This document shows positions 1,785 through 30,990 of a DNA stretch of 41,428 bases, piece after piece. The notes under the pieces are model-generated. The model did not search any database, was not told the DNA's origin, and saw only the letters and a list, made by a program, of their open reading frames with translations. Source of the DNA: a virus; IMG/VR virus record IMGVR_UViG_3300038436_000169, positions 1-41,428 of that record; one strand, 5' to 3'. Made by a program: the position numbers and the translations under genes. The stretch's first letter is position 1; every line of letters starts with the position of its first letter.

Positions 1785-3303
1785 CATCGAAATTGATTAT
1801 CAAATCTGTGTAAATATTATTGAAACGATGTTTTGCATCCTGACAAAATCAACAGACCACGGTATCGTCCGTTTTCATACCGTGCCTTTTGTCCTGCGTC
1901 CTTATCAGAAGCAGTTGTTGAAAGACCTGTTTAACACCATGAAAGCAGGCAAATACGTCCAGATTGAGAAATCCACCCAGATGGGTATCTCTTGGCTGAT
2001 GTGCGCACTTATCACCGTTTTCCTGCTTTTCGGGAAAAACGAGATGATGATTATTTTGGGGAAGAAAGAGGACTTTATCGACAAAACAATGAAACGCGGA
2101 CAGCATAACCCAAACACTTTGATGGGTAAAATTAAATTCATGCTGGCAAATCTCCGCGACAAAGGTATGAAAGGATATGCCCAAAAATATATCAGAACCA
2201 AATTCCTGCATATTCAAAATACCTTATTTGAAAATATCCTTGACGGAGAATCATCGAACGCGGACGCATCACGTGGCGGTAGCTACACCAAAGCCTTTTG
2301 GGACGAGGCGGCGTTTACAGACAACTCCGAAGACGTTCTCTCGGCGCTTACATCAGGAGACCGCTCGGGTTGGCTTTGTATGTTCAGTTCAGTCAATTTG
2401 CGCAATCCCAACAATGCGTTTTATAAAAATCGGTGCGCAATTCAAAGCGGTGAAATAGCAGATGCTTGGCGAATACTACGGGTGCATTGGAGCTCGTATT
2501 TTGACAAGGCGTGGTATGAATTTCAATGTAAAAAACTCGGTAATGACCCGCTACGTATCGCTCAGGAGCTCGACATCAATTATGACGGTCCTAAAAACGG
2601 ACTCATATTTTACAACTTCAACGACACAAACTATGCGGATGTCCGATTTGACAACGCTATCCGAAACAGCACCGTTTTGTCGTTTGACTTCGGTATCTCG
2701 GACTTGACGACGGGAGTGGTCATTCAATACCGATGGAATGCGCGCGATAGCAAACACGAGTTTTATGTGGTGGATTCGTTTGTGTTGTTCAATGTCCCGT
2801 TTCGCCTTATCTGGAACGCCATTCTTGAAACGGATAAAAACAAGCTCGCTTTTTTCATGATGGAGATTGAGGCTTCCACCAAACCGAAATATTTTGAGAC
2901 TTTCAGGCGGTTTATGGAGGGACATAATACACACCGCTATCATCATACCAACATCACCGGAGACCCATCAGCAAAGAACCGCAGTATCGAAAGCGGACGA
3001 GGGATTGCCGACCTCATAGAGCAGGATAATCATTTTCATTACTGGGTAAACCCCATTGGTGACAAGGAAGACGATATTCTCTCCTGTATCCGCGGGTGGC
3101 AACCAAATATCAAAATCAATAATGAGCTCACAGAAATGCGGGATATGATAGGCGGGTGGCAATACGATATGAATAAAGACGATGTTCCCATCCGTGTCGG
3201 ACACAATGAACACTCGCACCTTGGCGACGCATTCAAATACGGAATGAACTGGTATATAGAGGAATTATTTGGTGGCGTTACAATGTATTTCGCAAAAAAT
3301 TGA
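1771..3303 (+). CDS. terL: Terminase large subunit
   Basis: DNA-packaging motor, 510 residues, of usual length. The N-terminal ATPase has a deviant Walker A loop (EKSTQMGIS, residues 66-74) and a Walker B with catalytic Glu (FWDEAAF, D178-E179). The C-terminal RNase H-like nuclease shows the expected acids: SFDFG (D306), GDPSA (D398) and HLGDAFKYG (D486). It would use ATP hydrolysis to drive DNA into the prohead through the portal and cut concatemers. Start ATG 1771 lies inside the small subunit gene, suggesting translational coupling. Confidence 0.93.
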   Translation: MKKIDIEIDYQICVNIIETMFCILTKSTDHGIVRFHTVPFVLRPYQKQLLKDLFNTMKAGKYVQIEKSTQMGISWLMCALITVFLLFGKNEMMIILGKKEDFIDKTMKRGQHNPNTLMGKIKFMLANLRDKGMKGYAQKYIRTKFLHIQNTLFENILDGESSNADASRGGSYTKAFWDEAAFTDNSEDVLSALTSGDRSGWLCMFSSVNLRNPNNAFYKNRCAIQSGEIADAWRILRVHWSSYFDKAWYEFQCKKLGNDPLRIAQELDINYDGPKNGLIFYNFNDTNYADVRFDNAIRNSTVLSFDFGISDLTTGVVIQYRWNARDSKHEFYVVDSFVLFNVPFRLIWNAILETDKNKLAFFMMEIEASTKPKYFETFRRFMEGHNTHRYHHTNITGDPSAKNRSIESGRGIADLIEQDNHFHYWVNPIGDKEDDILSCIRGWQPNIKINNELTEMRDMIGGWQYDMNKDDVPIRVGHNEHSHLGDAFKYGMNWYIEELFGGVTMYFAKN

Positions 3304-3306
3304 GCT

Positions 3307-3320
3307 CATTTTGATGTATA
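3307..3320 (+). promoter_or_regulatory. Repeated motif TTTTGATGTATA upstream of portal
   Basis: CATTTTGATGTATA lies in the 37-base gap between terL and portal. The same 12-mer core is in the intergenic spaces at 9691 and 15438. It ends about 20 bases before the portal ATG, a position suited to a promoter-like element recognised by a phage-modified polymerase or to a regulator site. Function is inferred from recurrence and position only. Confidence 0.45.
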
Positions 3321-3340: not shown

Positions 3341-4672
3341 ATGGATGAAATTAAGCAAATTCCGGACGTGAAAAACAAGCTGTATAAAGACATGAACGAT
3401 TTTTGGAAGCTGTCTTTACTTTCTTATGAGGGTGGGAAAAAGTATATTGAGGGCAATATTACAAAACATTCAAGAGAATCATCAAATAAGTATCAAAGAC
3501 GGGTTGAGCAGGCTTTCAATATCAATTTTACACAAAAATTCGTTCAGATATTGACTTCGTTCATTTCGCAAGGTGTGGTTCGTCAAATCGATATTGGCGA
3601 GGGAAAAGACAATTATTTGGATAAAATCGACTTCTTTCGGACGGCAAAGAGCTTTTTCACCAGAAGGCTGGAAGAATACCTCTTAACTGGCGACTGCCTC
3701 GCGGTTGCAGACGCTTACGAAAACGAACGGGCTTTTCTTCATAACGTCAACGTGCTCAATATTATGGACTGGAAAACCAATGGACGCGGGTATGAATATG
3801 TGGACGTTTGGATTGGCGAACAGGTTATCCGCTATACAAAAGATGAAATAAAGATAGCGGATATACCAAGCTACAATCAGGCGACGGCGACATTTAAAGA
3901 ACCCAAGCCAAACGCAATCCAAATGCTTCCGATTGTATCGGCAAACGGTTTTCTTACCCCGATGCCAGCATACTTCCGAGATGCCATCTATCTTTGCCGC
4001 AATATCTTTTTGCAGATGAACTCCATCGCGTTTCAATACACCGAAAACAACTTCGCCATCCTTGCGCACCCGATGAGAAAAACATTCGGGAAAACCGAGC
4101 CTGCGGATAAAGACTACAATGATTTTGACCCGCACGATTTATCCCATATCGTTATGCCAGACAAAGATTCTCCACTACCCTCTTGGATAACTCAAAATAC
4201 CGACCATCTTGCTGGTAATCTTGAGTTTGTCGTTCAGCAAGTTAAATGGCTGATGTCTATGCTCAACATTTACAACACGGAAAGCGGAAACCTTTCTGGA
4301 GACGCAAAAAGCTATGACTACAGTCTGATGGTCGGCGTTCTGAAGGAAGTATCCAAAGTGATGCAGGAGTTTGAAATTAACTGTTGGTGGATGATGGCGC
4401 AATACGATGCAAAGATTAGAAACAACTGGGAGAAAATCGTTATTCAATATCCTACCGAGTTTGACGTAAAGGCTCTTAAAACCAAGCTGGACGAGTTTGC
4501 GCTCCTGTTCAACTGGGATATTTCGGATACATTCAATAAAGAAATACGCAAGCAGGTAGCAGAGCTCTACATCCGAAATGATGAAAAGCAACAGGCTATT
4601 TTTAAAGAAATTGATACCGCAACAGAACCCGAGGGACTTTTTGAAAAAGAAGGTGAAAATTTAGAGGAATAA
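3341..4672 (+). CDS. Portal protein
   Basis: A 443-residue protein between terL and the scaffold/capsid genes, the standard portal position. It begins with an alpha/beta region containing QAFNINFTQKFVQILTSFISQG, typical of portal N-termini, and has a long helical segment near residues 300-350 (FVVQQVKWLMSMLNIYN) matching the portal stem/crown region. Twelve copies would form the DNA channel at one capsid vertex and dock the terminase. The start follows CAGGAG at 3330. No lineage-specific motif pins it to a named portal family. Confidence 0.82.
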   Translation: MDEIKQIPDVKNKLYKDMNDFWKLSLLSYEGGKKYIEGNITKHSRESSNKYQRRVEQAFNINFTQKFVQILTSFISQGVVRQIDIGEGKDNYLDKIDFFRTAKSFFTRRLEEYLLTGDCLAVADAYENERAFLHNVNVLNIMDWKTNGRGYEYVDVWIGEQVIRYTKDEIKIADIPSYNQATATFKEPKPNAIQMLPIVSANGFLTPMPAYFRDAIYLCRNIFLQMNSIAFQYTENNFAILAHPMRKTFGKTEPADKDYNDFDPHDLSHIVMPDKDSPLPSWITQNTDHLAGNLEFVVQQVKWLMSMLNIYNTESGNLSGDAKSYDYSLMVGVLKEVSKVMQEFEINCWWMMAQYDAKIRNNWEKIVIQYPTEFDVKALKTKLDEFALLFNWDISDTFNKEIRKQVAELYIRNDEKQQAIFKEIDTATEPEGLFEKEGENLEE

Positions 4673-5791: not shown

Positions 5792-6886
5792 ATGCCCGTA
5801 ATTGAAGAAGGTGCGGTTACATCGTTTGATGTTCCTTCAAATAAACTGGATATATCTAACCAGTTTTATAAATTGGAACATCCCGAAACACCGTTTTATA
5901 ACAAAATTTCTGTTGGAGACAAATTGGTTAGCGATACCGCTAAGTGGTTAGAAGATGGCTTGTATCCCGCCGGAACAAAACTATCCGCCGCATACACTGC
6001 AGCCGGCGGTTCTATAACCGTAGTTAGCACACAGGGTATTCGCGTGGATATGATTTTGCAGATTGAAGATTCAACCTACAAGGTTACCGCAATTAACAGA
6101 ACAACCAAAGTTGTTACCATCGCAATCGTTGCAAATGATGCAAATCACGCATCTGGAAAGGCTGTTAATTTCTTAAACACTGCTCGCATTCAGGGCGCAA
6201 GCGGTCAAGAATCCGACTATACCCCTGAAGAATGGGTTGAAAACTATACCCAAATTGTTGACGATTTTGTTTCTGTAACAGGAACACAACAAGTTATTGA
6301 ACGCTATGCGGGGAATCCTGATTTGCTTGCAGATATGGTTGACAAAAAGCTCAAACGGATTGTATTCAATCTTGCTCGTGCTCTTTTTGCTAACCCACGG
6401 GTCAAAGCGGCAAACAAAACCGAAGCGTCTATTGCTGGTGGCGTTGACTTCTTTACAACTCTTCGCGGTTATGCTCCTGCAGCGAGCGCTTTCTCAACCG
6501 ACAATTTTGATGCTTTTCTTTTTGAGATGTCTCAGGTTCGAGGCGCGGCAGTCTCTGAAGCGTGGATGAATCCATCTGAAATGTCCAATTTTATCAGTCT
6601 TCACGCAGACAAACTCATCGTTGACCGTGGCGATGAAAAGGCTGGAAGAGTGATTAAGAGCTACATATCAAAATATGGCTTTGAAGTCAATTTGAATATG
6701 GACTCTTCTATCCCTGTCAAAAAGATTTTCATTGCGCAACCTTCTATGGTTCGTATCAGACCGCTTCGCCCGATTGTGATGGAAAATCTTCGCAATGACG
6801 GCGATAACAAAAAAGCGGACATCCGCGGTGAATTGACCTTTGAAATTAACCCCAGTAATCGCTTGGGTTGTTTCAAGGTTGCGTAA
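5792..6886 (+). CDS. Major capsid protein (SU10-type, DUF5309-like)
   Basis: A 364-residue HK97-fold candidate. The N-terminal FYKLEHPETPFYNKISVGD and WLEDGLYPAGTKL, the central QIVDDFVSVTGTQQ, and late LNPS/MVRIRPLRP-like strands match the phage SU10/DUF5309 capsid family, where the TPFYxKI and VSGTQ-type motifs recur. An inserted beta domain lies near residues 70-115 (small Ig-like or I-domain-like stretch with VTAINRTTKVVTI). It would form the icosahedral shell. AAGGAGG at 5779-5785 sets the start, and the scaffold precedes it directly. Confidence 0.85.
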   Translation: MPVIEEGAVTSFDVPSNKLDISNQFYKLEHPETPFYNKISVGDKLVSDTAKWLEDGLYPAGTKLSAAYTAAGGSITVVSTQGIRVDMILQIEDSTYKVTAINRTTKVVTIAIVANDANHASGKAVNFLNTARIQGASGQESDYTPEEWVENYTQIVDDFVSVTGTQQVIERYAGNPDLLADMVDKKLKRIVFNLARALFANPRVKAANKTEASIAGGVDFFTTLRGYAPAASAFSTDNFDAFLFEMSQVRGAAVSEAWMNPSEMSNFISLHADKLIVDRGDEKAGRVIKSYISKYGFEVNLNMDSSIPVKKIFIAQPSMVRIRPLRPIVMENLRNDGDNKKADIRGELTFEINPSNRLGCFKVA

Positions 6887-7486: not shown

Positions 7487-8908
7487 ATGGCGCATATTAT
7501 CCGAACCCCAGCTTACGACAAAGAAGGCAAGCTCACTGGTTATTACTATCACGAAGGCGACGGAAAAACCTTTATTCCGCTTTCGGGTGTGGAAGTGTTT
7601 GAGCGGGATAAGAAAATCCGAACCGCCAATGCCGACCTTGACGGAGTTGTGAAAGAAATTATGTCCGAACCGCTTGAGCGTAAAGACCTTCAAATACAAC
7701 TTTCGGTTCTGATGCGCGAACTGCGGGATTTATCCAAGTTTGAAACGATGAACAGCAAATCCAAATCCGACCTGCTCGCCAAAGCGCGAAAAGCCGTCAA
7801 TCTCTTTGTGGACAATTATTCCCGCATCGCTGTGGATGTTTCTCTCAAGCGGTTTGAAGATGACTTCCTTGCGCTCGGGAAAGCGCTCAATCAATACACG
7901 CACATCCAAAAAGAAATCAAGCTCCCAGACCTCAAGGCATACCGCGCCAGCCTGCTTGACCCGGAGATTCAAAAAATGGAGCATTACGTCAATAAAGTCC
8001 TTTTTACCTACTCGGCGCGTTTGACTCTCTTTGATTTGAATAAAAAAGGGCATTTGGAAGATGAATTGAAATCATACCTTTTGCGGCAGGATAATCAAAA
8101 CAAGAAGGGTGTCGGGCTCAATTTTTATGACCAAGTGGACGAGCTGATGGCGATGCTGGACCGTGATTATCCAACGGGCTATATTAAGTTGCCGGTCGTT
8201 CGGGTATCAACCCGCGGGTCAACGGTGAACGGAATCCGCAAGAAAGAATATCGCAAGATGGCGCTGGACTATTATCTCTCGGTTTGGCTTTCCGACCTTG
8301 AGGCAACCGTCCACAACGCCGCAACGCACGCCGCGTATATGAAAGCAGGGATTGATTTGGTTATAATCAAAAACGCATCGGCAAACCCCTGCGATATTTG
8401 CGCTCCCGATATTGACAAAATCTTTTCGCTCTCAGGCAATGACCCCGACTTTCGGGTTTGTCCCTATTTGCCACGCCATCCGCATTGCACCTGTTTTACC
8501 ACTCCCGTTTTGGATAATGAATTTTGGAAGACGGCAGAGGACGTAAAATGGGAATATAACGACGAAAACGAGGTCAGGAAAAATATTAAGAATGGCGTTT
8601 TTAATATGGATATTGTATCTGCTAAACAAAATCATCATATTGTCGGCTCTCCTGAATATGTTGAAGGGAAAAGCATTTTATCCGCAAATCCACGCGAATT
8701 ACTTGACAAATACGCAGGAAGTGGTAAAATAATGATGATTAAAAAAAAGTGGGTTCATAAAGAGCGGATTTACTGTGATGAAGTTATTGGTATTCACAAA
8801 AATCAAAATGGATTGGCTTCTGAAACAAAGGTCGGAATGATTCATTATTCCAAAAAGGGTGTTCACGTTGTGCCAGCAAAAGAGCCTGAAAAAGGAGGAA
8901 AGTTATGA
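7487..8908 (+). CDS. Minor head protein fused to a C-terminal Ntox50 toxin domain
   Basis: 473 residues. Residues about 80-340 are a helical Mu F/SPP1 gp7-like minor head domain ending in a zinc-site-like cluster: PCDIC (C302, C305) and CPYLPRHPHCTC. Residues about 380-470 match the polymorphic toxin type 50 pattern: NHHIVGSPEY, LLDKYAGSG, WVHKERI, IGIHKN and MIHYSKKGVHVVPA. Ntox50 is a predicted RNase-like toxin found fused to phage minor head proteins. The protein could be packaged in the virion and injected with DNA. The next gene overlaps by four bases and is a likely immunity partner. Confidence 0.82.
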   Translation: MAHIIRTPAYDKEGKLTGYYYHEGDGKTFIPLSGVEVFERDKKIRTANADLDGVVKEIMSEPLERKDLQIQLSVLMRELRDLSKFETMNSKSKSDLLAKARKAVNLFVDNYSRIAVDVSLKRFEDDFLALGKALNQYTHIQKEIKLPDLKAYRASLLDPEIQKMEHYVNKVLFTYSARLTLFDLNKKGHLEDELKSYLLRQDNQNKKGVGLNFYDQVDELMAMLDRDYPTGYIKLPVVRVSTRGSTVNGIRKKEYRKMALDYYLSVWLSDLEATVHNAATHAAYMKAGIDLVIIKNASANPCDICAPDIDKIFSLSGNDPDFRVCPYLPRHPHCTCFTTPVLDNEFWKTAEDVKWEYNDENEVRKNIKNGVFNMDIVSAKQNHHIVGSPEYVEGKSILSANPRELLDKYAGSGKIMMIKKKWVHKERIYCDEVIGIHKNQNGLASETKVGMIHYSKKGVHVVPAKEPEKGGKL

Positions 8909-9182: not shown

Positions 9183-9214
9183 AAGCCCGAGAGATAATCC
9201 CGGGCTTTTTCTTT
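9183..9214 (+). terminator. Rho-independent terminator closing the head unit
   Basis: AAGCCCG (9183-9189) pairs with CGGGCTT (9201-9207) across an 11-base loop and is followed by a T-rich run. It separates the head genes from the first promoter/small-gene module. A similar hairpin ends the second module at 15385. Confidence 0.8.
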
Positions 9215-9230
9215 TCCCAGAAACCCCATC

Positions 9231-9354
9231 TATTTACTGTCTATACCATCAAATATCTCAAAAAAATCTGCAACTATTTTACGCAAACACTTGACTTCCA
9301 TCCGCAATGCAAGCTAATCTGTTGTCGTAGAATAAATTAAAGGAGAAAACGATG
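9231..9354 (+). repeat. Duplicated promoter module, copy A
   Basis: This stretch and 15053-15165 share a leading TATTTACTGTCTA, an identical 44-base core (9275-9318 here; 15086-15129 there) and a nearly identical leader to the start codon. A variable AT-rich part lies between the first two blocks. The core carries a promoter. The two copies bracket the GHKL/RM island in the same orientation. Confidence 0.9.
9291..9320 (+). promoter_or_regulatory. Sigma70-like promoter of the 9352 gene
   Basis: TTGACT (9291-9296) and TAATCT (9315-9320) are separated by 18 bases and lie 32 bases before ATG 9352, whose ribosome binding site is AAAGGAG. The same arrangement is conserved in copy B at 15102. This suggests the small gene is transcribed independently of the late operon, as in phage morons. 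Confidence 0.7.
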
Positions 9355-9633
9355 GCAAGAATCAAAAAAACAAACAGAAACGAAATCAAAGAAACCGCGA
9401 TGGACGCTTTTATCCGCAATATGGAAAGCATCCGCGAGAACCTCAAAAAGCTGAACGAGCTGGCAAACGACAATCTTTATTTTAACCCCGACAATATCAA
9501 CTGGGGGCATGTTGGGTCAGCCTCGTATATGAATCAAGAGTTGATGGACCTCGCGGATTGTATGCTGGGCGAAGGTGGTTACTCGGGTTACAACAAATCG
9601 CGGGAATTGACGGGAACGGCGTGTAAGAAATAA
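9352..9633 (+). CDS. Small hypothetical moron protein (93 aa)
   Basis: It has its own promoter and terminator. The N-terminus is basic (MARIKKTNRNEIKE) and is followed by a long helix (MESIRENLKKLNELANDN) and a NWGHVGSASYMNQELMDLADCML region. The WGHVG...MNxxLxDLAD pattern looks like a conserved helical phage protein, but I cannot name a family. It may act in the lysogen or early in infection. The counterpart in module B (15163) has no evident sequence similarity, so only the control regions are duplicated. Confidence 0.65.
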   Translation: MARIKKTNRNEIKETAMDAFIRNMESIRENLKKLNELANDNLYFNPDNINWGHVGSASYMNQELMDLADCMLGEGGYSGYNKSRELTGTACKK

Positions 9634-9656
9634 GGCGGTTTTGGGAGAGGATTTTT

Positions 9657-9686
9657 AGCCGGGCAGAAATGCTCGGCTTTTTTTGT
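9657..9686 (+). terminator. Rho-independent terminator
   Basis: AGCCGGGCA-GAAA-TGCTCGGCT makes a 9-bp stem (one G-T pair) with a GNRA-type tetraloop, followed by TTTTTTTG. It ends the 9352 transcript and lies just before the TTTTGATGTATA motif. Confidence 0.85.
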
Positions 9687-9690
9687 TGGC

Positions 9691-9706
9691 GTTTTGATGT
9701 ATATAA
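9691..9706 (+). promoter_or_regulatory. Repeated motif TTTTGATGTATATAA upstream of the GHKL gene
   Basis: GTTTTGATGTATATAA here matches TTTTGATGTATATAA at 15440-15454 and the shorter copy before portal at 3309. It follows a terminator and precedes the GHKL gene start by about 46 bases, so it is a good candidate promoter or activator site for that gene. Confidence 0.5.
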
Positions 9707-9752
9707 ATTTGTGTCGAAATCTTGCAATTTTAGGAGGGTAAATTATAATTAT

Positions 9753-11828
9753 ATGGGGAAGGATAATGAAGTGAATGTAGACCTGATTGGGAAAGTATCT
9801 AACACACCGTTGTCACAAAAAAAATGTCTATTACCTATTTTTGAAGCTGTTGTAAATTCTTTACAAGCAATAGATGAGATAAATGGTAATGATAATACAA
9901 AAAATGAAATAAAAATATATTTTGACAGAGATGATTCAGAACAAGAAATAGAATTTTTAAAAGATAGTAATGATAGTTATTTGCCTCCAATTAATAATGT
10001 ATCTATACATGATAACGGAATTGGGTTTACAAACGATAATTATCAATCATTTTTAACTTCGGATTCTACAAGAAAAATAAATAAAGGTGGAAAGGGAATA
10101 GGTAGGTTTTTATGGCTTAAAGCGTTTCAAAAAGTTGAAATTGAAAGTATATTTTATAATGATAGTGAAAAACAAAATTACTTTAGAAAATTTGATTTTC
10201 TTTTAACTAAAGAAGGTATAGATATTGTTCAAGAGCCTGTAGTTACACCAAGAGAAAGATTAACAATAGTAAAATTAATAGAATATAAAAAAACATTTAT
10301 TAATAATGTTCCAAAAAAATTGGAAACATTAGCTTCCAGATTACTAGAACATATTCTATCTTATTTTGTTTTGGGAAATATCCCAACAATTACTTTAATA
10401 GATAATTATAATCAAGATGAAATAAATTTAAATGATATATTTAACAAAGAATTTTCAGCAAATATTGAAGAAAAAACAGTATTACTTAATGGGGAAGAAT
10501 ATAACATTAAATTTATAAAAATCTATAATTACGATGACTTAACTCACAAAATTCATTATTGTGCCAATCAACGTGAAGTAACCAATCTAAAGTTAGACAC
10601 ATCTTCCATCCCTAATTTGCCAGAAAAATTATTTGATGAGGAAGAAAAAGCGTATGTATACAAAATTTTTGTTTCTGGCAATATATTAGATAATAGTGTA
10701 AATTCACAACGGACAGATTTTGAATTTACACAACAAGACCTCAATCAAGGTGATTTATTTTCAAGCAAAGAATCCTTGACTAAAGCTTTTTCAAATCATT
10801 TTTCAGAAATACTTTCTGAAAAAATAAAACCAATACTTGATAATAAAATGAAAAAAATCGAAGAAAATATTAAAAAAGAAAATCCTCAATTTAGGTATAT
10901 TTTACATCATGATAAAAAATCGCTCGAAGATATGCCTTTGGATATAAGAATCGGTTCGGATAATTATATTAATTATATGAGAAAACTTGATTATAAAATC
11001 GAATCAAATACGAAGGAAGAAATTACGAAATTACAGAAAAATAAAAAAAACATATCTCCCGACGAATATAAGGAAAAAATAAATAAATATTTAGAAAAAG
11101 AAAATGACCTTTCTAACGCCAGATTGGGACAATATATAGCTCACAGAAAAATTATTTTGTCAATGTTTGAAGATGCTCTGACAATAAATAATGACGGGAC
11201 ATACGATTTAGAAGAGGTTATTCATAATATTATTTTCCCGATGCATAAAACATCAGATGAAGTTTTATACGAAAATCAAAATCTTTGGATTATTGATGAA
11301 CGATTATCCTATCATGAGTTTTTAGCTTCAGATACTGATTTTCGTAATAGCACTATGAAAGAAAATATTTTAGTAACAAAAAAACAAAAACGACCTGATA
11401 TTATAATAAAAAACATTACTGAAAGTGCTATTGCATATTCCGAATGTGACCCTTGTTCATCAATAGCTATTATAGAATTTAAAAAACCTCAAAGAGATGA
11501 TTATAATAAGCAAAAAAATCCATACGAGCAAAGTTTAGATTATATGCATGAAATATTAGATTTAAAACATAATATTGCAGGAAAACCTTTGTTTATACCT
11601 GCAAATATTCCATTTTATATTTATATAATTGCTGATATTACGCCAAAATTAAATAAAGTATTAGAAAATGTTGGTTTTAAAAAAACAGTAGATGGTATAG
11701 GTTTTTATTTTAATCACCCAAATTATAATGCATATTTTGAAGTTATACCCTATAACAAATTACTTAGGGATGCTAAAAAACGTAATAGAATTTTATTTGA
11801 AAAATTAGGGTTGCCGGAAAATCTATAA
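9753..11828 (+). CDS. MORC-like GHKL ATPase fused to a PD-(D/E)XK-type nuclease
   Basis: 691 residues from ATG 9753 (GGAGGG 14 bases upstream); an in-frame ATG further upstream lies in the terminator and is rejected. The N-terminal GHKL (gyrase/Hsp90/MutL) ATPase shows the N-box E31-x3-N35, the DNGIG motif (87-91) and GGKGIGRF (112-119). The middle is helical and lysine-rich, coiled-coil-like around residues 350-470. The C-terminus has D549 ... E575-F-K577 (RPDIII ... IIEFKKP), a PD-(D/E)XK nuclease signature. Bacterial MORC-type GHKL proteins are known to sit beside restriction systems. The gene is markedly AT-rich compared with its neighbours, a sign of recent transfer. Confidence 0.8.
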   Translation: MGKDNEVNVDLIGKVSNTPLSQKKCLLPIFEAVVNSLQAIDEINGNDNTKNEIKIYFDRDDSEQEIEFLKDSNDSYLPPINNVSIHDNGIGFTNDNYQSFLTSDSTRKINKGGKGIGRFLWLKAFQKVEIESIFYNDSEKQNYFRKFDFLLTKEGIDIVQEPVVTPRERLTIVKLIEYKKTFINNVPKKLETLASRLLEHILSYFVLGNIPTITLIDNYNQDEINLNDIFNKEFSANIEEKTVLLNGEEYNIKFIKIYNYDDLTHKIHYCANQREVTNLKLDTSSIPNLPEKLFDEEEKAYVYKIFVSGNILDNSVNSQRTDFEFTQQDLNQGDLFSSKESLTKAFSNHFSEILSEKIKPILDNKMKKIEENIKKENPQFRYILHHDKKSLEDMPLDIRIGSDNYINYMRKLDYKIESNTKEEITKLQKNKKNISPDEYKEKINKYLEKENDLSNARLGQYIAHRKIILSMFEDALTINNDGTYDLEEVIHNIIFPMHKTSDEVLYENQNLWIIDERLSYHEFLASDTDFRNSTMKENILVTKKQKRPDIIIKNITESAIAYSECDPCSSIAIIEFKKPQRDDYNKQKNPYEQSLDYMHEILDLKHNIAGKPLFIPANIPFYIYIIADITPKLNKVLENVGFKKTVDGIGFYFNHPNYNAYFEVIPYNKLLRDAKKRNRILFEKLGLPENL

Positions 11829-11840
11829 TCTCTCCCCCTC

Positions 11841-14800
11841 CTACCACTCCTTAACCCCCTCAATCTCCTGCATAATGCGGATGGTTTCGGACAGGGCGAC
11901 GATGATTTTCTGGTAATGAGTAATGTCGTCATAGGATAGCATTCTGCCCTTGCGGTCTTTGAGCCACTTTTGCGCAGGCTGGTATCCGCCGATGTAAAAC
12001 TCCCACACGTTTTGTAAAACCCCTTCAAAATACTGCGTTTCGTTGATAAAGACCTTGCCGTTTTCGTAAGATAGCTTTTCGACGGTATTGTTGCCCGACT
12101 CGGGAAAACGGGTGATGAAGCGACTGACGACTGGGCTTTCAAGCAGGTGGATTTGCCGTAGTTCTCCACCCAAGCGGACGAGTTGCCAAAAGCTATCGGC
12201 ATCGGTTGGATACGGAACTCGCGGAAAGTCGATTTTGAGGAACTCGCGGTATTTCTCACGGTAGCTGGGACAGTGCAGGACGGCATAGATGTAGTCAAGG
12301 ATGTCTATGGGTGCAAAGACGCTGTCGCCTTGTGTTTTTTCGGGGGTGAAGGAAAGTTCAAGCCGAGTGGCGATTTCAGTGACGATAGCGTCATTCAGGT
12401 TTGGCTTTCGGGCTTTGTCGAGGGAATCCTCATCGGGATAGAGATAGAGCGGACACACAACAGGGATTCCTTTATTACTATAATGAATCCTGTTATCAAC
12501 AATATAATTAGTAACTTGAACATGAGAGTAATTATCTGTTATTGCTTGCCTAGGGATGACCAACCCCACATTCTCACCCGCAAGGAAGTGGCGCATGATG
12601 TCATAGCGACTTCTTTCTATAAAATTCGTATTATAATACACAATCCTGTCGTCAAAAGGTCGGTAGGATATTTTTTGTAAAAAATCAGCCGAATAGTTTT
12701 TTGCTTTCTTCTTTACAATATCAATCTTCCAATTTGACGATTCCTTAATATTGTATTTTGATACCACTTCATTTTCTGATAAATTAAAGAAATCTTTTAT
12801 TCTATTTTCTAATTGGGACTTATAATTATCAATAACAAACTCATCCCTTGCCGTTACTATCCCGACCGAATTAACGCTAAAGAGTTCATTGACCGCAAAG
12901 CCCTCGTTATATATCGTCTGAAGGTCAAAATCCTTGGGCACAAAGTAATAGTTTGGCGGGGTATTGGATAGCAGCGCAAAACCCGCATCCTTGACAGAGT
13001 GGGTATGCAACCATTCGTATTTGGCGTCCCGCGCTCCATAGCAGTCGGCGTGATAGACCTCTGCCAAATCCCCCGCATTTTTCCTACCTTTTTTCTTGAT
13101 AAAGAGATTGATAGACACCCCTTGCTGGATGTCAAAGACGTTCTCATCCTTACTGCCGTCGGGGCAAGCCTCTTTTTTCTTGGAGTTGCCGTGCAAGTCA
13201 AGGCAATAGATTTTGTCAAACACAGACAGCAAGTTCCATCGCATACCCCGAAAGGTCGGGTTGTCCAAAAAGCCGTGATTGTTGATAAAAGCTAAAATTC
13301 CCTCGCCGTTCTTTTCAATAAAATACTGGGCAAAACGGATAAACTTCACATAGTCGTCATTTATCCACTTTGAGTTTTTCTCATCCAGCTTGACCTTGCC
13401 TTCGGGCTCTTTTTTATAGTCTTCCATCAAATTCATAATCCACTTGTCTTTGTTTTGGCTTTCACCGCTATACGGCGGATTACCGATAACCACCATCACT
13501 GGCGTTTCGTGTTTGACGGCATTAGCCTCCTGCGCCTCCCGCGATAACCAGCTTGCAAACAAAATTCCTGTATCGGGGTGCGGTTCTTCAAGGCTGTTGG
13601 TCAGAAAAACCCGCAGTCGCTTTTGGGTTTGGTTGTCTTTGGGCTGGTATCCCGTTTCCGACAACAGCAATTCGATTTTCATATGGCACATCGTATAGCT
13701 TGCCATCAGTATTTCAAATCCGTGAATCCGTGGCAGGAGGTGTTCGTCCACATAGTCGCTCCAAATCCCTTCTTGTCCTTCAAAACGGCGGTGGATGTGC
13801 TCTACGGTTTTGTAAAGAAACGTTCCTGTTCCTGTCGCGGGGTCAAGTATCTGCACGCGGTGGACTTCTATTTCCTTCATCGGTGTTTTTGTCGCGTTTT
13901 TATGGGGGATTTTGACCTTGTCCTCAACCTCAATTTTAACCTTGCCCGTATGCGCCAGTCCGTCGGCAATCCCAAACTCGTCTTTCAAAATATCGTCAAC
14001 CGCCCGCACAATAAAGTCAACCACGGGTTCGGGCGTATAATACACCCCTCGGGATTTTCGCAGTGCTGGGTCGTATTCCGCAAGGAAGGTTTCATAAAAA
14101 TGGATAAAGGGGTCGGCTTGCCCGCTCATTTTTCCAAAGTCTTTGAGTAGAGCGCGGACGTCGGTTGCCCGAAAAGCGACGCATAAATCGTCAATAATCC
14201 ATGCTACGCGGTCGTCCAGCTCCGCCCCAGATATATAGTCAAACAAACTGCGCAAAAAGGGATTGGAACGCGGTATCAATCCGCGGGCTTCCTGCCTTGA
14301 AAAATCTTCCAACGTGGTATCGTGTAGTCGCGCCGCAAAAAGCCCGTAGGCAATAGTTTGCGCATACACGTCGGCAAAGGTCTTTTCATCCATATCGTGA
14401 ATGAGTATTTTCCGAAAGGCAGTCAGTTGGTCTTTGAGCGAGTTATTCAGAGCATCTATCGTAACGGCTTTAAAAAACGCCTCTTCAATCATCTTGGCTT
14501 TATGCGCCATAATCTTGGCAAGTATTTCGGGTGATTTGATGGTTTGCCCGATAAACTCGCAAAAGTCTTTTATTCGATTGGTAAAGCTATCGAAAGAATC
14601 GGCATTCGGCTTGATTTTATCCTTTTCAATAGTGGCAAGAGCTATGGTTTCAACCTTTTCGCCGTATCGGTAAAATCGAAACTCAAGGTAATTGGTCAGG
14701 ATAAGATTTTCGAGGCTGTTTTTGTATCGCTTCATTTGTTCGGATTTTTCAACCTTGTCCAAATCACCCCCGATGTCCTTTGCCTCAATATATCCAAGCG

Positions 14801-14987
14801 GAACATCTTTTTTTTGGATGATATAATCGGGCGCGCCGCATTCCTGACGCTTTGGCTCATTTGTTACCAATATGCCTGATACCATTGATTCAATCAAGGT
14901 TTTCAAATCCCCGCGATAACTATGCTCCGTCGCCAGATGCGTCTTATATGATTTCTTAATATTATTCAAATATTCTTGTATATCCAT
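11841..14987 (-). CDS. Type IIG / ISP-like restriction-modification enzyme
   Basis: 1048 residues, one polypeptide. The N-terminal nuclease is PD-(D/E)XK-type (PDYII D54, then E68-A-K70). A helical linker leads to an N6-adenine methyltransferase with motif I DPATGTGTFL (about residue 380) and motif IV NPPY (about residue 500). The C-terminal 450 residues resemble the LlaBIII/LlaGI-type target-recognition region (SYRPFDDRIVYYN, FVIDNY). No SF2 helicase block is present between nuclease and methylase, so it is closer to type IIG than to full type ISP. It would methylate its own site and cut unmodified DNA. Its end is 12 bases from the end of the GHKL gene, converging on it. Confidence 0.9.
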   Translation of the reverse strand: MDIQEYLNNIKKSYKTHLATEHSYRGDLKTLIESMVSGILVTNEPKRQECGAPDYIIQKKDVPLGYIEAKDIGGDLDKVEKSEQMKRYKNSLENLILTNYLEFRFYRYGEKVETIALATIEKDKIKPNADSFDSFTNRIKDFCEFIGQTIKSPEILAKIMAHKAKMIEEAFFKAVTIDALNNSLKDQLTAFRKILIHDMDEKTFADVYAQTIAYGLFAARLHDTTLEDFSRQEARGLIPRSNPFLRSLFDYISGAELDDRVAWIIDDLCVAFRATDVRALLKDFGKMSGQADPFIHFYETFLAEYDPALRKSRGVYYTPEPVVDFIVRAVDDILKDEFGIADGLAHTGKVKIEVEDKVKIPHKNATKTPMKEIEVHRVQILDPATGTGTFLYKTVEHIHRRFEGQEGIWSDYVDEHLLPRIHGFEILMASYTMCHMKIELLLSETGYQPKDNQTQKRLRVFLTNSLEEPHPDTGILFASWLSREAQEANAVKHETPVMVVIGNPPYSGESQNKDKWIMNLMEDYKKEPEGKVKLDEKNSKWINDDYVKFIRFAQYFIEKNGEGILAFINNHGFLDNPTFRGMRWNLLSVFDKIYCLDLHGNSKKKEACPDGSKDENVFDIQQGVSINLFIKKKGRKNAGDLAEVYHADCYGARDAKYEWLHTHSVKDAGFALLSNTPPNYYFVPKDFDLQTIYNEGFAVNELFSVNSVGIVTARDEFVIDNYKSQLENRIKDFFNLSENEVVSKYNIKESSNWKIDIVKKKAKNYSADFLQKISYRPFDDRIVYYNTNFIERSRYDIMRHFLAGENVGLVIPRQAITDNYSHVQVTNYIVDNRIHYSNKGIPVVCPLYLYPDEDSLDKARKPNLNDAIVTEIATRLELSFTPEKTQGDSVFAPIDILDYIYAVLHCPSYREKYREFLKIDFPRVPYPTDADSFWQLVRLGGELRQIHLLESPVVSRFITRFPESGNNTVEKLSYENGKVFINETQYFEGVLQNVWEFYIGGYQPAQKWLKDRKGRMLSYDDITHYQKIIVALSETIRIMQEIEGVKEW

Positions 14988-15052
14988 AAGACAAACTCCG
15001 TTTTTTTATCTTTTAAATCGGTTTATCGGGTTCACAACTCCAATTTGATGGC

Positions 15053-15165
15053 TATTTACTGTCTAATCAAGCAAATAATTGTAATTATTTTACGCAAACA
15101 CTTGACTTCCATCCGCAATGCAAGCTAATGTGTTGTCGTAAAATAAATTATAGGAGAGAAAAATG
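15053..15165 (+). repeat. Duplicated promoter module, copy B
   Basis: Direct repeat of 9231-9354: TATTTACTGTCTA, a divergent AT-rich spacer, then the identical 44-base core at 15086-15129 and a leader differing at only a few bases. It reads away from the restriction enzyme gene, whose start is 65 bases to the left. Together with copy A it marks the boundaries of the island. Confidence 0.9.
15102..15131 (+). promoter_or_regulatory. Sigma70-like promoter of the 15163 gene
   Basis: TTGACT (15102-15107), an 18-base spacer, and TAATGT (15126-15131), conserved from copy A. A TAGGAG ribosome binding site at 15151-15156 and ATG 15163 follow. Confidence 0.7.
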
Positions 15166-15363
15166 AAACGAAACATGGTAAGGGAAACTTGGGCAACCAT
15201 CGGCGGTCGGATTGAGGATTATAAGGCGATGGCGGAAACGAAAGGCTTTTTGAAAACTTGGTATGCGATTAAAAGAGGCTACGGCAAAGAAAACGCCAAA
15301 GAGGTTTTTAACGGACTGATTGTTTTTATGCTGAACGGTTATGAAACCTACTACGGAATTTAG
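15163..15363 (+). CDS. Small hypothetical moron protein (66 aa)
   Basis: Has its own promoter copy and a terminator, so it is an independent unit in the late region. The protein is basic, aromatic-rich and probably helical (TWATIGGRIEDYKAMAETKG, WYAIKRGYGKENAK), with a hydrophobic C-terminal helix (VFNGLIVFMLNGYETYYGI) that might bind a membrane or partner. No family is recognised and no clear relation to the 9352 product is visible. Confidence 0.65.
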   Translation: MKRNMVRETWATIGGRIEDYKAMAETKGFLKTWYAIKRGYGKENAKEVFNGLIVFMLNGYETYYGI

Positions 15364-15384
15364 GTAAAATTTTAAAATCCACCC

Positions 15385-15414
15385 AAGCCCTCGGAAATAT
15401 CCGGGGGCTTTTTT
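15385..15414 (+). terminator. Rho-independent terminator of module B
   Basis: AAGCCCTCGG pairs with CCGGGGGCTT across an AAATAT loop (10 bp with one G-T), followed by TTTTT. It is related in sequence to the terminator at 9183 just before copy A. Confidence 0.85.
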
Positions 15415-15437
15415 CATTTCCCACCAAAAATCGCCTT

Positions 15438-15455
15438 CATTTTGATGTATATAAC
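15438..15455 (+). promoter_or_regulatory. Repeated motif TTTTGATGTATATAA upstream of the tail genes
   Basis: CATTTTGATGTATATAA follows the module B terminator and lies about 30 bases before the first tail gene. It is the third copy of the 12-mer core also seen at 3309 and 9692, again in a gap where a new transcript must start. Confidence 0.5.
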
Positions 15456-15484
15456 TTTGAGAAAAAAATACTTTGGAGGTATCT

Positions 15485-17950: not shown

Positions 17951-18643
17951 ATGATTTTTATTGACGACCGTGAGTTTTTCATATCCGAAAAACCCAGTAA
18001 AATAGAGGATTTTCAAGATGTAACGCTATACAGGGTTAATCTCTTGACCGTCATCAAAATTGACGAGCTGTGGAAGAAATTTGAGACAACGGAGATTGAA
18101 GCGGTGAAGGAAGAGGTTATCCGTCAGTTTTTGGGACTGACCACCAATCTGAAAGAATTTGACAAACACTCCATCGCCGACCTTTCGGAATTATTCAAAG
18201 AGGCATACAGTTTCAACTTTCCGAAAATCATTGAACGCAACTCAAACGGGGCTGTTTCCTCTTTGGAAACGGAAAAATCCATCTATACGCGGATACTTCG
18301 GATAGCGGAAACCATGGCAAGCGTTTACAACTATACAATCGATTATATCCTTCATAATGTAAACTTGGTGCAAGCCTTATGCCTTCAAAAGAAATTGGAG
18401 GCGCGTCAGGCATCGGTTCATCTCCATCAGCTCTACGCAAACAGCCAGTCGGGAGAGGCAAGGCAGGAATACCAAACCGAACTTATCGGGCTCATTAACG
18501 GCTACGTTATTTCAAAAACATCGGTCGAAGAGGCACTCCGAGAAGCCAAAAACAATCCCGACATAGCAGGCAAAACTTTAAGCGAATATCTGGCAAACCG
18601 CCAAAAAAAGATGATGGAGGAAGCAAATGGGAGAGGAGAATAA
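17951..18643 (+). CDS. Putative tail assembly chaperone
   Basis: 230 residues, helical, directly before the tape measure gene and overlapping it by 17 bases, the standard chaperone position. It starts with IDDREFFISEKPSKIEDFQDVTLY, followed by acidic helices and a C-terminal EYLANRQKKMMEEANGRGE. Near the end lies A-AAA-AAG (18604-18610), a known -1 slippery heptamer, which would add about 31 residues in the other frame. Chaperones often use such a frameshift, but the extension here is short, so this is uncertain. Confidence 0.6.
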   Translation: MIFIDDREFFISEKPSKIEDFQDVTLYRVNLLTVIKIDELWKKFETTEIEAVKEEVIRQFLGLTTNLKEFDKHSIADLSELFKEAYSFNFPKIIERNSNGAVSSLETEKSIYTRILRIAETMASVYNYTIDYILHNVNLVQALCLQKKLEARQASVHLHQLYANSQSGEARQEYQTELIGLINGYVISKTSVEEALREAKNNPDIAGKTLSEYLANRQKKMMEEANGRGE

Positions 18644-21600
18644 GGGCAGTCTTTTTAACGGCGGTGGTGTTCTTTTCACCATCGATGCCGACGGCAAACC
18701 CGTGATGACCGAAATTGCAAATATAGAGAACGCATTCAAAAAGAGTGCGAAGGAAATTAAGAAAAACTATAAGACGGCGCTGTCCGATTTGGACACCAAA
18801 ATGAAAGCAGGAATAGACACCAAGCAAGCCAAAAGCGATGTGAAACGCTTGAAAAAAGAGATTGAGGCGGAACTCGCGCAATTCAAGACTGGGAAAATCA
18901 CATTTGACGCAGGACGGGTGAGAGAACTCAACGAATCGCTTGCGCAGGCAAAAGGCATGTTAACAGGTTCTGGCGGTATCGGAAACATTATGCAGGGCGT
19001 CCTGCAAGGAATCGGGCATAGCATTATGAACTTTGCCACCCAAGCCGTCGGAAACCTTATCGGCGCTTTCAAAAACGGAATCCAGACCGCTATCGATTTC
19101 AATGAAGCCACCTCAAAGTTTATGGTGGTTTTCAAGGGAGTTGAAAAAGAAGCGTTACAAATGCGGGATACGCTCGTTCTCAGTTACGGAATGAGCAAGG
19201 TCGAGGCGACCAAGTTTTTATCGAGCGCTCAAGACCTTCTCGTTCCGATGGGGATGGCGCGGGATAAAGCTCAAGAATTATCAAGCGGAATGGTTAAGCT
19301 TGCCGCCGATATCGGATCGTTCTCAAATAATTCTACCGAAGAAGTTTTCGATAACCTCCAGAGCGCTATGGTGGGTAATTATATTGCGATGAAAAAATAC
19401 GGTATTATTATTAACGAAATAAGATTGAAAGAAGAGGGTTGGACAAAGGAAATGAGCCAAGCGGAAAAAGCCCAATTAATATTTAAGATTATGGCGGAAG
19501 GTAGCGCTGATGCGATGGGGGATTTTGGCAGGACAATCGATTCATCTGCGAACCAAATCAAGATTCTGAACGCAACGATGACAAATCTTTGGCAACAAAT
19601 GGGCGAGGGAGTGGAGAAATACCTCAACCCGTTTTTGCAGGGATTGAATGACTGGCTTATCAATTTTGAGCAGATTGACGACCTGACCAAGCGATATATT
19701 TCCACTACCGACCAGCTCCAGCAGGTGATGAAAGACCTTGCCGAAGCCGAGGCGAACGGCGATGAAGAGGAACGGCTCAAGCTCGAGACAAAGAAAATAA
19801 AGCTGCAGGACAGGCAAATCAAGAATGTTCAGCTGATGTCCAAAAAGACATCGGAATACTTTACCGAACTCAACAAGCTCAAAGACCCTTTCGACATCAA
19901 GACGGAGCGTATAACCGAATACGAGCAGGATTTGCAGAAAATTGAGGAATTAAGAAAGAGGCTTGACGAGCTTAAGAAAATCGACACTTCGGGAATGACA
20001 ACAATTGAAAAGCACAACCTTGACAAGCAGATTAACGAAATAGAAAACCAGATGACCGAGCTCAACTCCAAAATTGCATCCAAAAAAGGTGATTTTTACC
20101 GGTCGACAAAACAAATAACGGATAAAATTATTGCTGGGCTTACTCCCGAACGCCGAGCATTAGAATCTGCTACCGGGGTGTATAAAGACCAATTGATTTT
20201 ACAGCTAAATATTGCGGAAAAAGAATCGGATAAAATTTTGAAAAGGATTGAAGAAAACTACAACGAGCATAACGAGAGGCTTGGAAAATACAAGCTAACA
20301 ATGGTTGCAAGAGCTCTTTATCAAGATTTAGAGACAAAAATCGAAATAGCCGAAAAAAATAAACCACAAACCAAAAACACCGGTGGGGATGATGGCGGGG
20401 GGGCAAAAGTAAAATTTATAGATGAATTAGATGAATATAAAAGATTATATAAAATAGGACAATTGCAAACTGCTGATTACTATCAAAAACTAATTAATTT
20501 ACAGAAAAAATTTACTGATGAATATAATCGAATTAATAAAAAAGGTGGAATTGGGGTTACTGAAGATGAAGGAAAAATAACCCAAAAATACGAAACCATA
20601 ATTGATGAAATAAATAGTATTTATGAAAATAATGCTAAAGAACTGATTGATGCTTTTGAAGAGGAAAACAAAGCAAAAGATGATTATCTTACCAAAGCCG
20701 ATGAGTTTCTTGTCCGTATGGATGCCCAAAAAACAGCGTTAGGACAGGGAGTGTATAACTCGGACGCAATGATTGAGTTTATTAAAAAATTAAATGAGCA
20801 ACGAGCGGCTATTAAAGGAGTAAGTGATGTTCAATATATTTTAGAACAGAATGAATTAGGTTTAATAAAAACTGAATCGCAAAAAAAAGCAATATTAACT
20901 CAAATCAATCAATTATTAAAAGAAAGATTTTCACAAGAAAAAGCAAATGCAATTTTAGCACTTTCACAAAAAAACGATAGTGACCCAAAAATAAAAAAAT
21001 TTAAAGAAGAGAAAAAAGCGCTTGAAGCTCTTCAAAAACAGCTTTCCAAAACAAGCAAACCGCTGGAGAAAAAGGCATTTGATGATGCAACCGAGGCGGG
21101 GAAAAAACTGAATGAGGAATATGAAAAACTCATTGAAAATATGAACAAGCTCGGGAAGTGGCGTTCGCTGGATGTTGGCAATGCCTTACTTCGTCAACTT
21201 TTTGAAAACTGGGAAGGGATTGTCGGTGAGGTATACGACTTTGGTGTGGCTATGAAAAAGCAAGAAGACGCCGTGGCGGGACTTGCCATCAAAAACGCTC
21301 TACTTATCACGCAGGAAAGGGATTTAAACCAGATTAAAGTAAATATAATCGCTGGGCAAAACAGGCTTAATGAATTACAAGCGAAATACAACGAACTGCA
21401 AGACCCAAAGAAACGCAAGGAATATGAGAAATTAATGAAAAAACAAAAAGATATAACTGCGGATTGGCAAGATGAATATCGCAATATGGAAGATTCGATA
21501 AATGATACTGGGAACGAAATGAAAGATTTGCAGGGCAATTCGGACGAAGCTACTAACGCTATGGCTGGCGGTTTTGTTGCGGTTGCCACTATTGTTGCCG

Positions 21601-23102
21601 ACGAGCTTCTGGTTGCTTGGAATCGCTTTGACGAGGTGATGGAAGAAACGGGTGATGAAGCGATGGCTTGGGGTGAGGCGATGGAAACCGTTCTGTTGGA
21701 TTTGGTTTCGCAAATTCCAATCGTGGGCAAATTACTCGCAAAACTGCTGGATGGAGCAATCACAACCGATGCAGAACAACGAGAGGAAAATCTTGCAAAG
21801 ATAGATGATGCAATGGCGGAATATGAGCATCGGCTTAACATGATGACGGATGAAGAACGCGAAGCCAACCTTAAAAATGAGATTGCATTTAATAAAGCAA
21901 TCCTTGCGCAATTGGAAGAACAAGACGCGGATAAAGAGGACATCTGGGCGCAGGAAGAAAAGATTTTTGGCCTTGAGCAAGACCTTCTTGAAATTGAGGA
22001 GCAGAAAACAGAAGAAATAAAAAAGCAACAAGAGGAATTGGATAACCTGAACAACCAGCTCAAAAATATGTATGAGACGGAAGAGGGGAAACAACTGTCG
22101 AATCGCGCGCAGGAGTTTGAACGATTGGTTTCGTCGGGACAGCTCGATATGGGCGTCACCGAGGATGTTCAAACTGCTATTGATTTCTATCAGGGTTTGG
22201 CAGACAAGGCAAAGGAACTGGGACTGGAAGACGAAATGAATACCTATCTGGATAAGGTTGCGGATTTAACGGGCTCTTTGCAATCTTCCCGAACCTATGG
22301 AGAGGACACGACCAGCACAGAAACCAAAGAAGCCGTTGACAATCTAATGTCCTCCATTGGAACGGTCGAAACCGATGCACAATCTGCCGTTGACAATTCC
22401 GACGAGGGTAAAGACCTGCTCCAGCAGATAGCGGATAATACTGCCAACATTGCGAATAACACAATGCCACAAGTTGAAAACATGCCAACCTTTGATAAGC
22501 CTGAAAATAATTTTGAGCATACCTATCAACCAAGCTATGAAAACAGACCTGCAGAACCTGCACAGGAAACATCAAGTAATTCGGGGCAATCCATAGGAAT
22601 TGGAATTGGTGTGGGCGCTACAGCTGGAGCGGCAGTCGGCACAGCCATACTTCCTGGGATAGGGACGGCTGTTGGAGCGGTTGTTGGGGGTTTAGCTGGC
22701 GCAATTGGGGGGTGGTTCGGTTCGCTTTTTTCCTCACACTCTGGCGGGCTTGCGGGAACGGATAAAACCTTTGAAGACCTGAAAAAAGAGGGGCTCAAGG
22801 ATGACGAAATTATTGCCAAGCTCCAAAAGGGCGAAATGGTTATCCCGCGGGAACTGACCAAGGAGCTTCTCAGTCCGTCCGCTTCGCTTTCGGCGTTCGA
22901 TAATTGGAAGGACAGCGCGCTTATGCCAAAAATAAAAGGTATTTCGACTAACACAACCAACAACCTGACCCAGCGCACCGAACTCAATTTTGGTAAAATC
23001 GAAATCCACACTCAAGCCACCGACCCCGACAGAATAGCCAGCGATATGCTTTTGTCCATTAATAAAGTCCTCAAGAAAAACGGAAGGGAGGGAATTTTAT
23101 GA
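18627..23102 (+). CDS. Tail tape measure protein
   Basis: 1491 residues, by far the longest gene, setting tail length. The N-terminal 120 residues are charged and coiled-coil-like. A hydrophobic region follows (GIGNIMQGVLQGIGHSIMNF), then a FNEATSKFMVVFKGVEKEA and SAQDLLVPMGMARDKAQEL block typical of phage tail tape measures. The middle is long coiled coil. Near residue 1310-1360 a glycine-zipper segment (IGIGIGVGATAGAAVGTAIL) precedes a SHSGGLAGTDKTF and GEMVIPRELTKEL motif typical of tape measure C-termini. A segment about 20340-21010 is noticeably more AT-rich than the rest, suggesting a swapped domain. Confidence 0.93.
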   Translation: MGEENKGSLFNGGGVLFTIDADGKPVMTEIANIENAFKKSAKEIKKNYKTALSDLDTKMKAGIDTKQAKSDVKRLKKEIEAELAQFKTGKITFDAGRVRELNESLAQAKGMLTGSGGIGNIMQGVLQGIGHSIMNFATQAVGNLIGAFKNGIQTAIDFNEATSKFMVVFKGVEKEALQMRDTLVLSYGMSKVEATKFLSSAQDLLVPMGMARDKAQELSSGMVKLAADIGSFSNNSTEEVFDNLQSAMVGNYIAMKKYGIIINEIRLKEEGWTKEMSQAEKAQLIFKIMAEGSADAMGDFGRTIDSSANQIKILNATMTNLWQQMGEGVEKYLNPFLQGLNDWLINFEQIDDLTKRYISTTDQLQQVMKDLAEAEANGDEEERLKLETKKIKLQDRQIKNVQLMSKKTSEYFTELNKLKDPFDIKTERITEYEQDLQKIEELRKRLDELKKIDTSGMTTIEKHNLDKQINEIENQMTELNSKIASKKGDFYRSTKQITDKIIAGLTPERRALESATGVYKDQLILQLNIAEKESDKILKRIEENYNEHNERLGKYKLTMVARALYQDLETKIEIAEKNKPQTKNTGGDDGGGAKVKFIDELDEYKRLYKIGQLQTADYYQKLINLQKKFTDEYNRINKKGGIGVTEDEGKITQKYETIIDEINSIYENNAKELIDAFEEENKAKDDYLTKADEFLVRMDAQKTALGQGVYNSDAMIEFIKKLNEQRAAIKGVSDVQYILEQNELGLIKTESQKKAILTQINQLLKERFSQEKANAILALSQKNDSDPKIKKFKEEKKALEALQKQLSKTSKPLEKKAFDDATEAGKKLNEEYEKLIENMNKLGKWRSLDVGNALLRQLFENWEGIVGEVYDFGVAMKKQEDAVAGLAIKNALLITQERDLNQIKVNIIAGQNRLNELQAKYNELQDPKKRKEYEKLMKKQKDITADWQDEYRNMEDSINDTGNEMKDLQGNSDEATNAMAGGFVAVATIVADELLVAWNRFDEVMEETGDEAMAWGEAMETVLLDLVSQIPIVGKLLAKLLDGAITTDAEQREENLAKIDDAMAEYEHRLNMMTDEEREANLKNEIAFNKAILAQLEEQDADKEDIWAQEEKIFGLEQDLLEIEEQKTEEIKKQQEELDNLNNQLKNMYETEEGKQLSNRAQEFERLVSSGQLDMGVTEDVQTAIDFYQGLADKAKELGLEDEMNTYLDKVADLTGSLQSSRTYGEDTTSTETKEAVDNLMSSIGTVETDAQSAVDNSDEGKDLLQQIADNTANIANNTMPQVENMPTFDKPENNFEHTYQPSYENRPAEPAQETSSNSGQSIGIGIGVGATAGAAVGTAILPGIGTAVGAVVGGLAGAIGGWFGSLFSSHSGGLAGTDKTFEDLKKEGLKDDEIIAKLQKGEMVIPRELTKELLSPSASLSAFDNWKDSALMPKIKGISTNTTNNLTQRTELNFGKIEIHTQATDPDRIASDMLLSINKVLKKNGREGIL

Positions 23103-30784: not shown

Positions 30785-30831
30785 TTTGTTGATGAGGAAT
30801 TTGATAGGTTTCTCAATCTCTAAACACACTT

Positions 30832-30902
30832 CTTAAAATTCATTTCTTAACAGATACAAACTTTGGTCTCAAGTTTGTATCTGTTTAGAAATGAATTTTA
30901 AG
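30832..30902. repeat. 32-bp-arm inverted repeat with 7-base centre
   Basis: The arms 30832-30863 and 30871-30902 are inverse copies with a single mismatch, separated by TGGTCTC. The inner part (AGATACAAACTT, 7 bases, AAGTTTGTATCT) has the shape of a tyrosine recombinase crossover site. The long arms could also give an RNA hairpin or a cruciform. Confidence 0.85.
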
Positions 30903-30990
30903 ATAACAAATCACAAGAACCTATCAAATTTCAATTCACAAAAGGCCAATAACCATTATAACAAAAAGCAGGAAAAAAGACAAATAAGCG

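Follow-up and report, generated by a model that had tools for sequence, protein, structure and literature searches.

ParaMORC3 proteins are defined as GHKL ATPases with an S5 domain and a C-terminal RE-fold nuclease carrying the residues E-D-ExK (Iyer, Abhiman and Aravind 2008, PMC2292703). That paper describes MORC and paraMORC1-5 genes as often linked to restriction systems, a subset of the nuclease-bearing paraMORC3 members as standalone, and paraMORC3 in general as sporadic, mobile and often standalone; the passages on paraMORC3 make no mention of phage genomes or of a head-tail slot. A 2025 paper on VcSduA of V. cholerae reports that this protein, tested alone, protects both E. coli and V. 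cholerae and needs E27 and K557; the paper places it in Shedu type I-D (PMC12137116). Antiviral hotspots at fixed sites are known from P2-like phages and P4-like satellites, as set out in the abstract of PMC9122126. The phage described below resembles these hotspots in that its putative accessory defence genes are gathered at a single site of a temperate genome; there a GHKL-Shedu (paraMORC3) gene and a one-gene restriction enzyme sit side by side in a phage genome that is complete.

We analysed the whole virus record IMGVR_UViG_3300038436_000169 of IMG/VR, 41,428 bases in length (hereafter the window). Its first 99 bases are identical to its last 99, so the phage genome is circularly closed and complete, at ∼41.3 kb. 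The presence of a tyrosine integrase indicates that the phage is temperate. It also encodes a scaffold protein, ParA, a primase and a ParB_N-methylase. The main phage genes are as follows.

1771-3303: terminase
3341-4672: portal
5792-6886: major capsid protein (MCP)
7487-8908: minor head protein
18627-23102: tape-measure-like protein with a lysin match
29389-30441: tyrosine integrase

The island occupies the gap between the head and tail genes, and both of the conflict genes placed there by the original prediction are present as described. Its anatomy can be read directly from the window.

9183..9207, plus strand: terminator T1, following the last head-region gene and forming the left edge (RNA folding energy -13.1 kcal/mol, z -3.6)
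9275..9318, plus strand: 44-base core of the left module, exactly identical to 15086-15129
9291-9296 and 9315-9320, plus strand: -35 TTGACT and weak -10 TAATCT of the left core, a presumed promoter
9352..9633, plus strand: small ORF A, 93 aa, matching PHROG 14596 (unknown function, 5.7e-17)
9657..9678, plus strand: terminator T2 (-15.9 kcal/mol, z -3.7)
9692..9706, plus strand: TTTTGATGTATATAA, the copy before the GHKL gene
9753..11828, plus strand: GHKL ATPase with S5 domain and C-terminal PD-(D/E)XK nuclease, 691 aa, of paraMORC3 / VcSduA-like (GHKL-Shedu) architecture
11841..14987, minus strand: type IIG / type ISP restriction-methyltransferase (RM), 1048 aa, convergent with the GHKL gene
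15086..15129, plus strand: 44-base core of the right module
15163..15363, plus strand: small ORF B, 66 aa, without a family match and unrelated to ORF A
15385..15410, plus strand: terminator T3 (-19.5 kcal/mol, z -4.3), homologous to T1
15440..15454, plus strand: TTTTGATGTATATAA, the copy before the first tail-block gene (15485)
3309..3320, plus strand, outside the island: the element for a third time, as TTTTGATGTATA, ahead of the portal gene (3341)

The reading that we favour, and consider probable, is that the island holds two anti-phage genes, each independent and sufficient by itself, which this temperate phage carries as accessory cargo (morons) between its head and tail genes. The description of both as conflict genes is supported, and we consider the two in turn.

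The open reading frame of the GHKL gene spans 9669-11828. Its start is likely the ATG at 9753 rather than position 9669, because homologues begin nearby, a ribosome-binding sequence (AGGAGGG) lies upstream, and TTTTGATGTATATAA would otherwise be coding; with the start at 9753, the gene is ∼2.1 kb long and TTTTGATGTATATAA falls outside it. The GHKL motif residues E31, N35, D87, G89, G91, G115, G117 and R118 are invariant in 63 proteins. An AlphaFold2 model of the full-length protein (pLDDT 87) agrees with the proposed MORC-like ATPase, in that its residues 6-357, which include the S5/transducer domain, match Hsp90, SMCHD1, MORC3 and MORC2 at Z of about 17-18. The C-terminal PD-(D/E)XK signature is likewise real: the nuclease residues E487, D549, E575 and K577 (E-D-ExK) are invariant in the 63 homologues. 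Folded alone, the C-terminal domain gives a model of pLDDT 85, which aligns best with the Shedu nuclease of Bacillus cereus (Z 7.7 over 146 residues) and with SduA of E. coli (Z 7.5). These Shedu chains are tied with EndoMS and other PD-(D/E)XK enzymes, all matches to the C-terminal fold lying below Z 8, and they appear for the C-terminal domain alone, being absent among the matches listed for the full-length model.

The window protein matched neither SduA_C (DUF4263) nor the PADLOC models, had no match in NCBIfam, and was barely recognized by Pfam. Among its relatives, SduA_C ties for the most frequent Pfam match, with hits in 8 of 63, and also has the strongest score (2.7e-4); profile searches of the PDB with the family returned nothing useful. 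The assignment to the paraMORC3 / VcSduA-like architecture and mechanism class is well supported, and the protein may also be a member of Shedu in the strict sense. With paraMORC3 the protein shares the GHKL and S5 domains and a C-terminal RE-fold with E-D-ExK; with VcSduA it shares an N-terminal GHKL ATPase, a clamp/S5 region, a C-terminal PD-(D/E)xK nuclease and the single-gene format. Residues E27 and K556 of a Vibrio fluvialis homologue align with E31 and K577 of the window protein, and by residue numbers, through this homologue, the E27 and K557 needed by VcSduA correspond to the same two positions. Unlike VcSduA, the window protein falls below the SduA_C Pfam threshold and its gene lies in the late region of a phage.

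The second gene is, judging from its sequence, an intact and complete one-gene restriction system. It encodes a type IIG/ISP enzyme, as the original prediction held, and lies on the minus strand; the enzyme is full-length, with its motifs undamaged (PD..EAK at 53-70, DPATGTGTFL at 382 and NPPY at 503). The protein matches Type_ISP_C (2.7e-89), N6_Mtase (3.1e-14) and the PADLOC model REase_MTase_IIG (1202 bits). Full-length relatives are found in viral contigs at 43-57% identity (63% for a fragment) and on plasmids at 35-53%. A helicase block is a feature of LlaBIII and LlaGI that the window enzyme lacks. What it shares with these type IIG / type ISP enzymes (LlaBIII, LlaGI; 7lo5) is a single chain with an N-terminal PD-ExK nuclease, an N6-MTase and a type ISP C-terminal specificity domain.

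The two genes differ sharply in composition, and the original prediction was correct that only the GHKL gene is AT-rich. Its GC content is 25.7%, against 45.0% for the RM gene and 41.7% for the phage overall, and its GC3 is 0.155, compared with 0.39-0.52 for the RM, terminase, capsid and primase genes (RM 0.524). This contrast points to different histories of the two cargo genes.

It had also been proposed that the two genes form a two-part system, with the GHKL protein either assisting or controlling the restriction enzyme. It might do so, e.g., by sensing that enzyme's methylation state, as suggested for MORC/paraMORC restriction operons. The two genes are adjacent in one island, and the restriction links described for MORC and paraMORC1-5 in PMC2292703 give the idea a precedent. 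No recurrent pairing was observed, however. Of ∼110 GHKL loci, just one had a homologue of this restriction enzyme within 10 kb. The asked-for check of co-occurrence gave the same answer, as 37 of 50 genomes carrying the GHKL gene have no ISP-type enzyme anywhere; Type_ISP_C occurs somewhere in the other 13, compared with 3 of 14 control genomes. Relatives bearing one gene without the other had been named beforehand as evidence against a paired system, and on that count the pairing fails. At the sole other locus with both kinds of gene, in an uncultured Ruminococcus (L087, 5968-14502), the GHKL-nuclease and type IIG genes are less than 4 kb apart and lie on the same strand. In the window they are convergent, on opposite strands, and so do not form a co-directional operon; their GC3 values suggest that they probably arrived separately. 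The precedents also run the other way, since paraMORC3 members are often standalone in the account of PMC2292703 and VcSduA works alone (PMC12137116). We therefore regard a two-part system as very improbable, and the two genes seem to share this defence cargo site by chance.

The distribution of the GHKL family fits two independent genes. Single-sequence scans for relatives gave nothing, and an alignment query was needed; with it, at least 485 stretches of GTDB genomes and 31 viral loci were found to encode a relative. By tblastn, relatives were found on 57 plasmids, with matches over 80% or more of the protein in 47 cases (the best 30 of the 57 at 24-35% identity), and in one phage. The sequence comparisons thus place the GHKL protein in a widespread family. 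Its neighbours vary and include SIR2 with an ATPase, CBASS genes, AbiE, type I RM operons, a Shedu-annotated gene and integrases. Among the 140 nearest neighbours of GHKL genes, even the commonest PADLOC families matched no more than five, and the listed type IIG models two each. Near the viral copies lie, among others, genes for CI-type repressors, further genes of lysogeny or replication and sometimes genes for packaging. The family is thus a single-gene one without a fixed partner, a claim about the diversity of its neighbours and not about enrichment for defence genes. Together the results support the view that paraMORC3 genes are mobile and act in defence on their own, and are not adjuncts to restriction systems.

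How each gene might act can be proposed from its described relatives. If the protein works as VcSduA does, ATP would make the GHKL-S5 module dimerise and clamp incoming DNA or a DNA-bound complex; this ATP-gated clamp would then allow the C-terminal PD-(D/E)XK nuclease to cleave the invader's DNA, and the host would survive the cleavage. As is typical of its family, the type IIG/ISP enzyme would methylate one strand of an asymmetric site and cut unmodified DNA. We infer both expression and activity here; if the genes are active in the lysogen, each enzyme could protect it, and thereby the prophage, against other phages, and both together could broaden the lysogen's immunity to superinfection. 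Alternatively, the GHKL-nuclease might serve the phage's own lytic cycle, as a late-expressed enzyme for DNA processing or host takeover, because its gene follows the copy of TTTTGATGTATATAA at 9692 and runs in the same direction within the late block. This seems very improbable. The closest GHKL relatives are chromosomal or plasmid-borne, several of them in defence islands, and are not phage core genes; the gene has a foreign, AT-rich composition; and phage-borne relatives are often found beside repressors, whereas the gene in the window sits in the late region. Protection of the lysogen by two independent genes remains the reading that we prefer for both enzymes.

The island is bracketed by repeated elements, largely as the original prediction had described. 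The same module lies in direct orientation on both sides, and positions 9275-9318 are exactly identical to 15086-15129. The longest identity between the modules is exactly these 44 bases (TATTTTACGC...GCTAAT), set within a 103-nt block that is 85% identical. A 42-base part of the core occurs at only two places in the window, even with three mismatches allowed, and in 0 of 100 shuffles. The small ORFs within the modules are indeed unrelated, their alignment score of 24 being equalled by 52% of shuffles; ORF A has relatives in Roseobacter and other phages. The GC-rich terminators also stood up to analysis, with a folding z of about -4 for each of the hairpins (9657-9678 and 15385-15410). The outer terminators are themselves homologous (T1, 9183-9207, with T3, 15385-15410), with an alignment score reached by 0 of 2000 shuffles.

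Two of the proposed elements needed qualification. The shared core had been called a promoter, and its -35 hexamer (TTGACT) is good, but its -10 hexamers (TAATCT and TAATGT) hold only three of six consensus bases. The 44-mer is only a modest sigma-70 match and was not among the promoters listed by a consensus scan; its position makes it a likely, putative promoter. The core is also part of an imperfect inverted repeat, TTATTTTACGCAAACAC..GTGTTGTCGTAAAATAA (15085-15101/15130-15146, 88% complementary; 15085-15146 and 9275-9335), whose arms flank the -35 and -10 and form a possible operator. The half-site TTTTACGNNAACAC occurs elsewhere in the window no more often than chance. As for TTTTGATGTATATAA, it does stand on both sides of the island, exactly twice in the window (9692 and 15440), but it is not island-specific, because a TTTTGATGTATA copy also precedes the portal gene at 3309. 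The TTTTGATGTATA copies at 3309, 9692 and 15440 lie just ahead of the portal, GHKL and first tail-block genes, respectively. Given the copy before the portal gene, TTTTGATGTATA is most simply read as a candidate late-expression element of the phage.

The anatomy makes a cargo slot plausible. In its strong form, homologous recombination between the 44-base cores, the terminators or the TTTTGATGTATATAA elements would swap the cargo. The direct 103-nt block with its identical core on both sides, the homologous outer terminators and the mixed composition of the cargo are what such exchange could leave, and the P2/P4 hotspots described in the abstract of PMC9122126 offer a parallel at fixed sites. 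The same repeats could equally come from two successive moron insertions or from tandem duplication, and TTTTGATGTATA stands before the portal gene too. If exchange takes place, different cargo would be expected between these modules in related phages. The collections searched yielded no relative, whether bearing the cargo or lacking it, and exchange thus has no comparative support. Nucleotide searches with the first 20 kb of the phage found no relatives among GenBank phages; exact patterns of the 44-base core found none in IMG/VR, nor did peptide scans of IMG/VR with MCP, TerL and ORF A. In genomes of several phyla (from draws of which two overlapped), MCP found only proteins ∼25% identical, in short loci whose surroundings match no other gene of the window, and the portal protein found nothing in eight chosen records. 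Swapping of cargo by recombination is a rather unlikely account of this island. Equally unlikely is the broader suggestion that duplicated promoter-ORF-terminator modules, with a 44-base core in an inverted repeat, form a recombination-based slot among the late genes of these phages, which would load defence genes such as a GHKL-Shedu protein and a type IIG enzyme between the head and tail operons. Exchange would be compatible with two independent defence genes, because it concerns how the cargo arrived.

For the origin of the modules we infer the following. The ancestral phage plausibly ran from the head gene through a terminator and the late element straight to the tail genes, with the promoter-ORF-terminator units and the cargo inserted later. 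Each small ORF, with its promoter-like core and terminator, would be a separate small moron, and the cargo may have landed beside, or duplicated, the phage late-expression element TTTTGATGTATA.

Elsewhere in the genome, three features merit mention. The minor head protein (7487-8908) is SPP1 gp7-like and carries a C-terminal Ntox50 domain (PF15542, 7.8e-25), which gives this virion component a putative toxin moiety. At 40059-41381 a DNA methylase is fused to a ParB_N-like domain; the end of this gene falls inside the 99-bp terminal repeat, and distant relatives of the fusion occur near other GHKL and RM loci. Finally, a 33-bp inverted repeat (30831-30903, 97% complementary, 7-nt loop), with outer arms at 30785-30810 and 30918-30943, sits in the AT-rich gap between the integrase and the early genes and is possibly attP or a partition or replication site.
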